DNA of 64,000 bases from Ruminococcus sp. (GTDB taxonomy: Bacteria > Bacillota > Clostridia > Oscillospirales > Ruminococcaceae). The notes beneath the pieces were generated by a model. The model did no database searches, had not been told where the DNA came from, and saw only the letters and a program-made list of their open reading frames with translations. The DNA is taken from the NCBI GenBank assembly GCA_017620025.1, contig JAFZRF010000041.1, positions 1 to 64,000 of the forward strand, given 5' to 3'. This document shows, piece by piece, positions 1-58,937 of the stretch (its first letter is position 1; each line of letters opens with the position of its first letter). Position numbers and translations under genes: made by a program.

Positions 1-200
1 AAAACAGTCCCCCGGACTGTTTTGGAATTCACCCCTTGCGAAGCGCCCTGCGGATAAATGCAGGGCGTTGCCCCAACCTAACCGGTCCGTCCCCTCTGTC
101 AGCTTCGCTGACATCTCCCCACACTGTGGGGAGTCACCCCACCAGGGGCTCTGCCTCTGGACTCCGCTAAAGGGGCGCAGCCCCTTTAGAATCCCAAACT
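1..200 (-). repeat. Hairpin-array repeat, copy A (cut by window start)
   Basis: This is the reverse-oriented relative of the elements at 2066-2244 and 58622-58798. Read on the minus strand it begins with the shared GGGATTCTAAAGGGGC hairpin and continues with the CCAGAGGC hairpin, the GGGGC-AAC-GCCCT hairpin and the ACAGTCC-GGG-GGACTGT hairpin at the window edge. It differs from the other copies by about 60 extra bases (77-136) that carry two more small palindromes, CCCCACAGTGTGGGG and GTCAGCGAAGCTGAC. The stop codon of the lipoprotein gene lies inside the first hairpin. Confidence 0.85.
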
Positions 201-541
201 AACGGCTCCCGCATCGGGAGCCGTCTTTTCTGTCCTTCGGTTGTGGCTGTTGTTCTTGTCTCTGTCCTGCCGTCAAGGCCGTCGATAATATCGCTTACGG
301 CGTCGCCTGCGCCCTCGATGATATCCTTTCCGGCATCCCCGGCACCGTCAACTGCATCGTCGATATGCTCCTTTGCAGTGTGGTCTCCGGGAAGCTCAGT
401 CACCCGGCTGTAGGCGTTGTCATCAACGACTTTGCCGTTCTCGGTGCTGTATTCTCCCTCGTGCTTCATACCCGAACCGCAGCTCGTCAGAGCAGCCGCA
501 GTGAGTGCAAGAGCAGAGGTTATTGCTAAAAACTTTTTCAT
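167..541 (-). CDS. Small secreted lipoprotein of unknown function
   Basis: This 124-residue protein has a lipoprotein signal (MKKFLAITS, then ALTSC with a lipobox cysteine near residue 21). It should be exported and lipid-anchored on the outer face of the membrane. The mature part is short, acidic and rich in Gly, Asp and Ala, with an imperfect repeat (DAVDGAGDAGKDIIEGAGDAVSDIIDG) that suggests an amphipathic helix. No known domain was recognised. A GAAGGGA ribosome binding site lies 9 bases before the ATG. The last about 20 residues are odd: they translate a GC-rich hairpin (201-223) and then the first hairpin of repeat copy A, ending in DSKGAAPL. The original stop codon has probably been lost and the repeat supplies the present one. 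Confidence 0.7.
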   Translation of the reverse strand: MKKFLAITSALALTAAALTSCGSGMKHEGEYSTENGKVVDDNAYSRVTELPGDHTAKEHIDDAVDGAGDAGKDIIEGAGDAVSDIIDGLDGRTETRTTATTEGQKRRLPMREPLVWDSKGAAPL

Positions 542-1945: not shown

Positions 1946-2300
1946 GCCGGTATGTCTTTTATATGTCCTTTGTGGATCTTTTATGTGTCCTTTCCGGCAC
2001 ACTGGTACAAAAATGCCCCTGTTCTTCGCAGGGGGGAAGCTTGTTGAAAAAGCACTTTCTAAATCAGTTCGGGATTCTAAAGGGGCTGCGCCCCTTTAGC
2101 GGAGTCCAGAGGCAGAGCCTCTGGTGGGGTGTGGGGCAACGCCCCGCATTTATCCACAGGGCGCTTCGCAAGGGGTGAATTCCAAAACAGTCCGGGGGAC
2201 TGTTTTGGAAGAGGGGATGCCTTGCAAGTGAAGGCGTCCCCTGATAAAGCTTTGTTATTTGATGCTATGACGCCCCTGCAAAATACAGGGGCGCATAATA
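1946..2300. other. Intergenic region holding TATGTCCTTT repeats and hairpin-array copy B
   Basis: There is no gene here. The left part holds the TATGTCCTTT-like direct repeats and a small CCCCTG/CAGGGG hairpin (about 2016-2034). The middle is the hairpin-array repeat. The right end has another hairpin, GCCCCTG-N7-CAGGGGC (about 2272-2292), just past the stop codon of the AEC transporter gene, where it may act as a weak terminator. Confidence 0.7.
2066..2244 (+). repeat. Hairpin-array repeat, copy B (complete)
   Basis: This is a 179-base run of consecutive perfect or near-perfect hairpins with short loops. Stems are at 2077-2086/2090-2099 (CTAAAGGGGC, 10 bp), 2106-2113/2117-2124 (CCAGAGGC, 8 bp), 2133-2137/2141-2145 (GGGGC), 2180-2193/2197-2210 (TTCCAAAACAGTCC, 14 bp, GGG loop) and 2213-2223/2231-2241 (GGGGATGCCTT, one G-T wobble). 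It matches copy C at 58622-58798 over its whole length. Differences either fall in loops or keep pairing, so structure appears to be maintained. It encodes no protein. Confidence 0.9.
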
Positions 2301-17690: not shown

Positions 17691-17792
17691 CTTATCAGCG
17701 TATATATGTGAATATACCGTAAATTTCCGTACTGTTATTATTGAGGTAAAACAATTTTGTGTACAACTTGGAATAAAAGTACGTTTCCAATC

Positions 17793-17820
17793 AGTGTGGG
17801 ATTCTGAAGGGGCTGCGCCC
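17793..17820 (+). repeat. Fragment of the hairpin-array repeat
   Basis: The words GTGTGGGATTCTGAAGGGG and GCTGCGCCC match the left end of the repeat up to the middle of its first hairpin, after which similarity stops 3 bases before the recQ stop codon. Confidence 0.75.
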
Positions 17821-17822
17821 AT

Positions 17823-19676
17823 TTATCCTCGCGGCTTATCGTCGTCGGGATGCGTACTGATATGCTCACTGATAAGCCGGCAGAACTCCTCGCCGTACTT
17901 CTCCGCCTTCTTTTTTCCTACGCCTGATACAGTAAGGAATACCGCCATGCGTGTCGGCCGCACCCTGCACATATCCCTGAGGGCGGCATCGGAGAACACG
18001 ATATAGGCCGGAACCTTTTCCTCGGCTGCCAGCTTTGCACGCAGCTTCCTGAGCTTCTCGAAGAGCTCGTCCTTTGCATAGAAGGAATCCTCCGCACGCT
18101 TTCTGCCCTGCGGGGGCTTTTCCTTCGGGAGGTTCATGCGTACCGTTATCTTGTCCTTTACTATCCTTGCGGACTGCGCTGTCAGCTCAACTACCGGATA
18201 CTCTCCGCCGGAAAAGCTGAGAAAGCCCTGCATGATTAGGTGATCGAGCTCGGCACGTATGCGCTGCACCGGGGTATCGCTCATCAGGCCGTAGGTCGAG
18301 AGCTTGTCGAAGCCGAGCGACCGCACTCTTTCGTTCCCGCTGCCGTGCAGTACGTCGATTACCATGCTCTTTCCGTAGTACCTGCCCTTCTGCTTGATGC
18401 GGAAAACACAGGAGACTATCTTCTGTGCGTCAACGGTGATATCGACCTCCTCGAAACCGTTCACGCAGGACGAGCAGTTTCCGCAGTAGGAGGGCGCCTT
18501 TTCGCCGAAATACCGGAGCATTGACTCACGCAGACAGCCGGAGGTGGTAGCGTAGAAGGTCATCTCTTTGAGACGCTGCCTGTCACGCTCGAGCATGATA
18601 TCCTTCTCTTCCTCGGAGAGATCGGTATTCTCCTCACGGCTCTTCTCTATCATGAATTCGTTTGTCTTTACATCCTTTCCGCTGTAGAGAAGTATGCACT
18701 GCGCCGGGCTGCCGTCACGTCCCGCACGTCCGGCCTCCTGATAGTAGCTCTCGATATTCTTCGGCATATTGTAGTGTATGACGTAGGAGACATCCGATTT
18801 GTCGATGCCCATGCCGAAGGCATTTGTAGCTACCATTATACGCCTGCGGTCGTAGATGAAATCCTCCTGATTTGCTATTCTCTCCGTGTCGGGAAGTCCG
18901 GCGTGGTATCTTGTGGCAGAGAAGCCGTCGGCGCAGAGCTTCTCGCAGACCTCCTCCACGCTCTTGCGTGAAAGGCAGTACACTATGCCGCATTTGTCGC
19001 CGAAGCCGCCGATGAGTCTGCGGAGCGCAGCGTACTTGTTGTCCGGGTTCATCACCGAGAAATAGAGGTTCGGGCGGTCGAAGCCGGTTATCAGGGAGAA
19101 GGGCTCACGCAGCCCGAGCAGGCGTATGATGTCCTGCTTGACCGTATCCGTGGCGGTCGCCGTGAATGCGCTTATCACAGGCTTCTGCGGCAGGCTCTCT
19201 ATGAACTCGGCGATATGCAGGTAGCTCGGGCGGAAATCCTGTCCCCACTGTGATACGCAGTGCGCCTCGTCTATCGTGACCATGGGTATCCTTACGGAGG
19301 ATACAAGGCGGTTCATCTCCTGCGTGCCGAGTCTTTCGGGGGCAACGTATATCAGCCGGAACTCCCCGCGGCAGGCACGGTACATCGTATCGGAATACTC
19401 CTCCGGCGTGAGGGAGCTGTTGATGCAGGCGGCGCTCACGCCCGAGGAGAGCAGTGCGCTGACCTGATCCTTCATCAGCGATATAAGAGGGGATATGACT
19501 ATGGTCGTGCCGCTGAGCAGCAGCGCCGGAACCTGATAGCACAGCGATTTTCCGGCGCCTGTGGGCATTATGCCGAGCACATCGCTGCCGGAGAGGATGT
19601 GGTCGATAAGCTCCTCCTGTCCCTTGCGGAATGCCCTGTGGCCGAAGAATTCATTAAGCACCGAAAGCTTGTCCAC
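17823..19676 (-). CDS. recQ: ATP-dependent DNA helicase RecQ
   Basis: This 617-residue helicase unwinds DNA in recombination and repair. Walker A is PTGAGKSLCYQVPALLL (near residue 40), motif II is IDEAHCVSQWGQDFRPSY, and the helicase C motifs include YHAGLPDTER and QEAGRAGRDGSPAQCILLY. The RecQ zinc site follows (CLRESMLRYF...CGNCSSC), then a winged-helix domain, and a C-terminal HRDC domain (FSDAALRDMCRVRPTRMAVF). The start is GTG at 19674-19676, 8 bases after AAAGGAG; the longer frame would place this site inside the gene. It is monocistronic. Confidence 0.95.
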   Translation of the reverse strand: MDKLSVLNEFFGHRAFRKGQEELIDHILSGSDVLGIMPTGAGKSLCYQVPALLLSGTTIVISPLISLMKDQVSALLSSGVSAACINSSLTPEEYSDTMYRACRGEFRLIYVAPERLGTQEMNRLVSSVRIPMVTIDEAHCVSQWGQDFRPSYLHIAEFIESLPQKPVISAFTATATDTVKQDIIRLLGLREPFSLITGFDRPNLYFSVMNPDNKYAALRRLIGGFGDKCGIVYCLSRKSVEEVCEKLCADGFSATRYHAGLPDTERIANQEDFIYDRRRIMVATNAFGMGIDKSDVSYVIHYNMPKNIESYYQEAGRAGRDGSPAQCILLYSGKDVKTNEFMIEKSREENTDLSEEEKDIMLERDRQRLKEMTFYATTSGCLRESMLRYFGEKAPSYCGNCSSCVNGFEEVDITVDAQKIVSCVFRIKQKGRYYGKSMVIDVLHGSGNERVRSLGFDKLSTYGLMSDTPVQRIRAELDHLIMQGFLSFSGGEYPVVELTAQSARIVKDKITVRMNLPKEKPPQGRKRAEDSFYAKDELFEKLRKLRAKLAAEEKVPAYIVFSDAALRDMCRVRPTRMAVFLTVSGVGKKKAEKYGEEFCRLISEHISTHPDDDKPRG

Positions 19677-48607: not shown

Positions 48608-48631
48608 AGTCCGGAGGCAGAGCCTCTGGGG
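48608..48631 (+). repeat. Solitary hairpin 2 of the dispersed repeat
   Basis: The word AGTCCGGAGGCAGAGCCTC and following CTGGGG match the second hairpin of copies B and C, with CCGGAGGC in place of CCAGAGGC. It lies 10 bases past the kinase stop codon. Confidence 0.7.
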
Positions 48632-58554: not shown

Positions 58555-58600
58555 AAACAGCCATAGAGGAGCGACTGCTTCTTTATGGCTGTTTAGTTTA
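58555..58600 (+). terminator. Terminator related to the one at 16254
   Basis: The stem AAACAGCCATA/TATGGCTGTTT, with a further GAGGAG/CTTCTT pairing, gives 17 pairs and is followed by AGTTTA. The outer stem is the same as in the terminator at 16254-16295. Confidence 0.8.
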
Positions 58601-58621
58601 TCAGGAACCGCTTTTTCAAAT

Positions 58622-58798
58622 AGTTTGGGATTCTAAAGGGGCGCGCCCCTTTAGCGGAGTCCAGAGGCAGCGCCTCTGGTGGGGTTTGGGGCAACGCCCC
58701 ACAATATCCGCAGGGCGCTTCGCAAGGGGTGAATTCCCAAACAGTCCGGGGGACTGTTTGGGAAGAGGGGACGCCTTGCAAGTGAAGGCGTCCCCTGA
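58622..58798 (+). repeat. Hairpin-array repeat, copy C (complete)
   Basis: It matches copy B from end to end. Changes keep pairing: the 14-bp stem reads TTCCCAAACAGTCC with GGACTGTTTGGGAA (58734-58747/58751-58764), an A-T to C-G double change from copy B; the last stem is GGGGACGCCTT/AAGGCGTCCCC with no wobble. Loops differ (GC in place of CTGC in the first hairpin, AGC for AGA in the second). Confidence 0.9.
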
Positions 58799-58854
58799 CA
58801 GGATGACCGAAAAGCAGCTGTAGAATCAGGTTGTTTTACAAGGCCTAAAATGTA

Positions 58855-58937
58855 GGGAACGCCTTTGGCGGGCCGCTTGGTAACATTTGTTATGAACCTG
58901 CGGTCTGCCGGAGGCAGCCCCTTTAGAATCCCGAACC
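58855..58937 (-). repeat. Divergent reverse relative of the hairpin-array repeat
   Basis: The right end CCCCTTTAGAATCCCGAAC is the reversed left end of copy B. The rest is a different set of small palindromes: GCCTTTGGC (58861-58869), TAACATTTGTTA (58881-58892) and CTGCC-GGA-GGCAG (58905-58917). It faces copy C about 55 bases away. Confidence 0.65.

Follow-up and report, generated by a model that had tools for sequence, protein, structure and literature searches.

REP elements and BIMEs, which are associated with RAYT transposases, are high-copy extragenic palindromes that occur in arrays, as does the element that we describe here. REP/RAYT systems are defined by a GTAG-type foot beside the palindrome. 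In contrast, our element has no GTAG-type foot at its core ends (none in alignment A1, see below), its ends are inverted repeats of the DDE type, and the REP-like TGTAGGGGC hairpins near it are separate neighbours. Group IIC introns insert beside terminator hairpins. Unlike these introns, our element is too short for a ribozyme and a reverse transcriptase, and it has inverted ends and a target duplication. BOX elements have a modular anatomy, and we know of no terminator targeting by them. Like our element, the BOX elements of Streptococcus pneumoniae are interspersed repeats with extensive secondary structure, and they are thought to be parasitic (PMC3049150, in excerpt). They belong to another genus and are set apart here by description.

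The IS1182 family is already known for palindromic targets (excerpts of PMC5678879) and for derived MITEs (excerpts of PMC3852290). In Methanosarcina the MITEs derived from ISMac2 are short and non-autonomous, as here (160 and 169 bp, with 14 and 7 copies). However, the excerpts describe neither a hairpin-array core nor a hairpin-length duplication, and by this description the Methanosarcina MITEs are set apart from ours (PMC3852290).

In Staphylococcus, IS1182/IS1272 elements share the transposase family with our element and also insert at stem-loops, in many cases gene terminators, with hardly any preference for primary sequence (excerpts of PMC5678879 and PMC4923244). Five target hairpins were confirmed as terminators by RNA-seq, and hairpin deletion without duplication is reported for IS1272 and TnSha1 (Furi et al., PMC4923244, in excerpt). 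The two staphylococcal elements delete the target stem-loop wholly or in part (PMC5678879, PMC4923244), whereas here the whole stem-loop is duplicated. Wan et al. draw whole-stem-loop duplication as a hypothetical pathway b, and IS1272 follows pathway a, replacement (PMC5678879, in excerpt). In the literature searched, partly as excerpts, we met whole-stem-loop duplication only as this hypothetical pathway. The Ruminococcus elements look like the missing case of pathway b, with a cruciform that we infer.

A hairpin core and its copies

The window is the whole 64-kb stretch of DNA that was analysed. It is part of one contig (C51) of a Ruminococcus draft genome (G000; 2.71 Mb, 70 contigs, 76% complete), whose copies of the element we call own copies.

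The core is 171 bp long and consists of six short-loop hairpins (H1 to H6). In copy 1 it lies at 2071..2241 on the forward strand, as do all parts of this copy, and matches our covariance model R1 with 203.1 bits (E 2.6e-53; this copy is one of the sequences in the model). Changes on both sides of a pair (double changes) were counted in alignment A1, which holds this copy and has 32 sequences, eight from the window genome and 24 from relatives. H1 (2077..2099) has 10 pairs with double changes at 8, H2 (2106..2124) 8 pairs with double changes at 4, and H3 (2130..2148) 8 pairs with double changes at 5. H4 (2161..2169), with 3 pairs and then the conserved GCAAGGGGTGAATT, is invariant in A1; this stretch is also the search motif, and its conservation in A1 is partly by choice. 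H5 (2180..2210) is the 14-bp stem, with double changes at 3 of its 14 pairs. H6 (2213..2241) has 11 pairs, with double changes at 1 pair in A1 and at 7 in the model-fitted alignment A2.

Copy 1 stands between two terminator-like hairpins (a hairpin and then T's, judged by eye). The stem of the 5' hairpin T1 (2015..2034), CCCCTG/CAGGGG, is common to the 3' hairpin T2 (2271..2293, CGCCCCTG/CAGGGGCG); both are readings of the sequence. Between T1 and the core lies a decayed left terminal inverted repeat (TIR; 2038..2053), recognised by eye from its likeness to TCAGCTTGTCAAAAAAG, the form that intact copies of the sister genome G104 have. On the other side, the right linker with a decayed right terminal repeat fills 2242..2270 (linker identity 0.43 over 53 copies).

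A preliminary description of this DNA listed two full copies, a partial reverse copy and three fragments, and all of them are present. The core of copy 2 lies at 58627..58795 on the forward strand (190.5 bits, E 6.9e-50; this copy, too, is one of the sequences in R1), and the stretch 58614-58798 aligns with part of 2040-2270 at 93% identity. We read a T1 hairpin of this copy at 58557..58593 (forward strand). Copy 3, at 1..195 of the partial reverse copy 1-200, is the same kind of element on the reverse strand. It is truncated by the start of the contig, so its 3' end is missing (R1 108.7 bits), and it holds an extra 59-bp B module with two hairpins between H2 and H3 (76..134, reverse strand). 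A further hairpin, again a sequence reading, adjoins its 5' end (202..226, reverse strand). The fragments are a decayed remnant of linker and H1 start (17775..17825, forward strand; 82% identity, E 3.5e-9), an inverted piece of the 5' core end (58914..58936, reverse strand; 100% over 23 nt) and a mere 22-nt match at 48608-48629 (E 2.7e-4). Two base changes between the full copies had also been read correctly: the 14-bp stem changes A-T to C-G on both arms, and the wobble in the last stem becomes a Watson-Crick pair, U-G to C-G.

An extra module between H2 and the rest of the core occurs in at least 15 of 98 places with a 5' anchor, typically as 59 bp with two hairpins, and in relatives it is found at other core positions. 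The 59-bp module (ACTCCCCACAGTGTGGGGAG...; window 76-134 on the reverse strand, L133, L126, L123, L156) differs in its position within the core between genomes, as if it were independently mobile.

A 24-nt core motif with up to three mismatches has 108 matches in the window genome (49 forward, 59 reverse) and none when the pattern is read backwards. The stretch 2040-2270 folds with -106.5 kcal/mol (z -6.3; z -6.5 for the opposite strand). The motif counts and this fold exclude chance. A 37-nt motif from the other core end has 85 matches in the same genome, and several copies, including the one at the start of the window, sit at contig ends.

Beyond this genome, an exact 22-nt motif occurs in 10 named stretches, all from Ruminococcus MAGs. 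Of 125 genomes in the genus, 30 contain a 21-nt motif with up to one mismatch; the count is highest in the window genome (108), and the two that follow have 14 each. Within the family, model R1 (E 1e-6) matches 95 of 396 genomes and 35 of 126 genera. No more than seven candidates were scored in each of these genomes, which makes the copy numbers lower bounds, and the model E-values are rough. Among 299 genomes sampled from the phylum the only R1 core match is the window's own (0 of the 298 others). The plasmid search gave no match to the element. A phage record from human faeces (MT837043.1:7214-7277) has a stretch like H1-H2, 88% identical over 66 nt of the core; it is the sole phage match, and partial.

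That no named element has this layout, as had been supposed, agrees with Rfam: at the gathering score there is no match in the window, and the best match below threshold has E 1.5 (over 1960-2330). Among the matches listed from searches of open-licence PMC papers there was no publication on the element. As far as these searches go, the family-wide six-hairpin core is new.

Element ends, target hairpins and a transposase

In G104 and in other Ruminococcus the core boundaries can be inverted repeats (TCAGYYTGTCAAAAA). This motif has 70 exact sites in G104, and the reversed pattern has none. Many G104 elements stand directly against a hairpin, and several stand between two copies of one hairpin. 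Counting ends with the TIR motif, 55 of 75 are immediately adjacent (zero spacing) to a palindrome of six or more outer pairs. The same holds for 264 of 3998 positions taken at random and for 55 of 740 taken further upstream.

When both ends are recognised, the hairpin is duplicated at full length in 8 of 23 elements (17, 19, 21, 22, 22, 25, 26 and 36 bp; six exact, two with 1 and 2 mismatches). These eight keep a full-length hairpin on both sides, unlike the stem-loop replacement of IS1272. Core-bearing elements among them have the whole hairpin on both sides, over 17-25 bp and with 0-2 mismatches. One of the 23 has a short duplication, and 14 have none by the criterion used, including one without a flank (L259) and three whose matching hairpins have diverged, by eye (L036, L150, L178). 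Core-bearing both-ended elements from Ruminococcus measure 233-306 bp, with the 416 bp of L035 spanning two neighbouring elements. Because 233-306 bp is too short for a transposase, they hold none.

Hardly any TIRs survive in the window genome (14 sites with up to one mismatch, four of them exact), and own copies have traces of inverted repeats in their diverged linkers. Across the genus TCAGNNTGTCAAAAAA occurs in 40 of 125 genomes, with some matches falling in genes by chance; the reversed control totals 6 matches. A core with TIR and duplicated hairpin is also present, by eye, in another genus of the family (L295).

Some elements of 50-52 bp (L235:1501-1550, L242:1501-1551, L249:1465-1516) consist of two inverted ends and little else, and are candidates for the smallest mobile derivatives. 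The flanking hairpins of L235 and L258 are unrelated to each other, which could mean recombination between two copies.

At L239 an exact TCAGCTTGTCAAAAAAG end stands against a hairpin, and immediately within this end is a transposase gene. Its frame runs off the contig, and its protein belongs to the IS1182 family (NF033551, E 5.5e-123; DDE domains). The exact TCAGCTTGTCAAAAAAG is common to this IS1182 end and to the G104 MITEs. The protein has matches in 27 of 125 genomes. Insertion sequences with both ends, 1514-1540 bp long, are present in three sister species (G045, G081 and G036) and account for three of the eight full-length hairpin duplications; their transposases are 66-67% identical to the L239 protein, and they lie between exact hairpin duplications of 26, 36 and 21 bp, respectively. 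Their ends read TCAGYCTGTCGAAA, one base off the MITE ends (TGTCG for TGTCA). The G036 transposase is matched in two pieces, and its frame may be broken. An element in G075 has unrelated hairpins at its sides, and a full-length relative in G120 has a 6-bp duplication only. At E 0.001 no IS1182 transposase is matched in the window genome (76% complete) or in G104 (95%).

Another candidate partner, L244, was rejected. What is left there is the N-terminal part of an IS1182 transposase (54 aa matched), fused to a dockerin-like frame. This part lies next to its TIR, and at L244:294-692 it runs on into a frame for dockerin type I; recombination may have produced the remnant.

The ends, an insertion sequence that has these ends, the precise abutment on hairpins and the whole-hairpin duplication are direct observations. 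Since the ends are nearly those of elements with an IS1182 transposase, and the exact hairpin duplications are alike, we take the element to be a non-autonomous IS1182-type transposable element (MITE) of about 230-250 bp. With a probability of roughly 0.8, its cargo is the 171-bp array of six palindromes, and it was inserted at terminator-like hairpins, at gene 3' ends, by an IS1182-family DDE transposase acting in trans. A non-autonomous mobile element was among the options offered before; TIRs, 108 motif matches, hairpin-length target duplications, an empty orthologous site (see below) and an IS1182-type partner in sister species speak for it. The feature is real, and it is mobile DNA and not a proven RNA.

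Transposases normally cut with a fixed stagger. A DDE enzyme with a fixed stagger would not yield what is seen in the eight clear cases, where the duplication is as long as the palindrome, 17-36 bp. We propose that an IS1182-family DDE transposase recognises the TCAGYYTGTCAAAAA ends, presumably in trans, while the target hairpin would be extruded as a cruciform. Both strands would be joined at the feet of the two cruciform arms, points that lie close together whatever the arm length. Gap filling would then copy the arm, and the duplicated length would be the hairpin length. Each neighbouring gene would retain a terminator, making the insertion nearly harmless. Duplications of 17-36 bp that each equal one hairpin are the pattern expected if an enzyme acts at the base of a cruciform, and such action would make cruciform extrusion in vivo testable by sequencing insertion sites. 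Within the literature searched, and as far as the searches go, a hairpin-length duplication in natural IS and MITE copies is new.

Insertion history and gene context

At one own locus (L063) the orthologous gap in G104 holds a single hairpin and no element, an empty site. The orthologous gap of a second locus (L064) is also without the element. Five other compared loci have the element in both genomes, with an identity between the two of 92-98% for cores, 55-90% for linkers and 66-92% for gene flanks. At these five loci 35, 8, 44, 9 and 44 of 51 own paralogues are as close to the own core as its orthologue, or closer. That the orthologous core is not the closest points either to homogenisation between copies or to a shared sequence under strong constraint.

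Own cores are about 95% alike while the ends and the duplicated hairpins have decayed, and transposition appears to be old in the window genome. The flanking hairpins still match within the locus (score of at least 12) at 9 of 63 own loci, against 0.4% of between-locus pairs; 63 of 64 loci were counted, with L119 left out as an artefact.

Only one of 70 full own copies overlaps an ORF of at least 200 aa. Of the own copies, 57 are flanked by an ORF on each side; these neighbours are convergent at 33 copies, tandem at 12 in one direction and at 11 in the other, and divergent at 1. The corresponding numbers for 52 copies in relatives are 18, 17 and 16, and 1. These genes are mechanical ORFs, and some copies in relatives are orthologous to own loci and hence not independent. 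Between tandem genes we found no orientation bias (29 versus 27 of 56). Terminator targeting predicts this placement, which has no orientation preference.

Covariation and upkeep of the core

In A1, 99.2% of 1719 cells are paired, and both-sided changes occur at 21 of 54 pairs. Double changes fill 128 cells, compared with 27.0 in shuffles and 3-18 with the partner slid. In A2, which was fitted to the structure, they fill 298 cells versus 63.4. So the compensatory pattern seen between two window copies holds across the genus. The loops do not vary freely, as had been claimed from these two copies: over 53 own copies, identity is 96% in stems, 92% at unpaired core positions, and 36% and 43% in the flanking linkers.

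Strong covariation in both alignments is what a structured RNA (a 3'-UTR or small RNA) would bring, if it had a cellular role and were selected for folding of the forward strand, with mobility secondary. The conserved loops fit such an RNA, as does a core retained at orthologous loci while linkers decay. RNA-level selection would favour G-U intermediates and, in the case of a cis-acting RNA, one orientation as well. By cells the strand comparison is suggestive: G-U outnumbers A-C by 23 versus 4 in A1, 34 versus 13 in A2 (40 rows, after 6 of 46 with weak or partly paired matches were dropped) and 24 versus 8 at the inner pairs of A2. By distinct inner positions, however, the count is 11 versus 7 (p 0.48). 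G-U pairs are also rare (34 of 1992 cells), leaving stems that are near-pure Watson-Crick, and in own copies 6 different changes lead to G-U and 5 to A-C, excluding an H3 pair whose commonest state is U-G. Because orientation shows no bias in the counts from own copies and relatives, and the stems are almost pure Watson-Crick, the RNA option of the preliminary description is not supported; with no Rfam family matching either, we consider it unlikely. Near-pure Watson-Crick stems agree with palindromes kept by mutation alone, where template switching perfects imperfect palindromes and makes double changes without structural selection. In own copies, single-step forms are absent or scarce beside some double changes (at one H3 pair the second type is in 20 copies versus 0 single-step forms, at one H5 pair in 7 versus 3), and template-switch repair of palindromes is a described origin of double changes (PMC8794818, in excerpt). 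Yet mutation alone does not account for loops that are conserved, for a hairpin order shared by 35 of 126 genera or for a core far better conserved than the linkers, and we find it doubtful as a full explanation. Since loops are conserved, copies look homogenised and template-switch repair can make double changes, the earlier conclusion of selection on folding rather than on sequence is not established.

Alternatively, the core may be a mobile module of its own, REP- or BOX-like, with the IS1182 ends as just one vehicle. Among the 52 cores in relatives, 35 have no recognisable TIR, and the core may hence have additional ways of moving or of being retained; in some genomes it adjoins other repeated hairpins, and in G104 the same ends carry another cargo. 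Against this, intact-ended copies in G104 have hairpin duplications, as does L295 by eye, and no second pair of element ends has been proven. We hold such a module to be possible, at odds well below even. Stems of near-pure Watson-Crick pairs can fold on both strands. This good folding of both strands, together with the pooled placement of 109 copies, 51 of which have convergent neighbours and 2 divergent neighbours, would also suit a bidirectional insulator that was domesticated between convergent genes. But an insertion preference for terminators would already predict this placement, and IS1182 is among the families generally over-represented between convergent genes (PMC9208149, in excerpt). 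Domestication as an insulator seems improbable.

Conserved loops, and a hairpin order that is conserved over 35 genera, indicate that mutation is not all that maintains the core; the transposition machinery may take part, or a role as a barrier in both directions. We think that the palindromes are kept at the DNA level, where copies exchange sequence and imperfect palindromes undergo template-switch repair. Selection for a barrier between genes that acts both ways possibly contributes. Tentatively, and with somewhat more doubt than belief, we suggest a hitherto undescribed, family-wide palindrome-array element (35 of 126 genera sampled) that is kept as DNA structure by concerted evolution. In this reading, IS1182-type transposases would integrate at cruciform four-way junctions and read the duplication length from the hairpin of the target, so that it is not fixed by the enzyme. 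The core covaries, is common in one bacterial family and is absent from Rfam; covariation can thus mark palindromic mobile DNA and not an RNA gene.

Other repeats occur around cores and ends. REP-like TGTAGGGGC...GCCC hairpins are frequent neighbours (L161, 3' of the core; L193; window 58848-58900), and they are also a second cargo of IS1182-type MITEs in G104. Further variants of the ends, TCAGCGTGTCAAAAAA and TCAGAGTGTCAAAAAA, are numerous in G087 and G055, where they carry a different cargo (L232, L245). In G101 (L155, L157, L158, L159) a shared hairpin of CCTCCGGACTCAGTCCGGACGCA type stands 3' of the core, where other genomes have the TIR.
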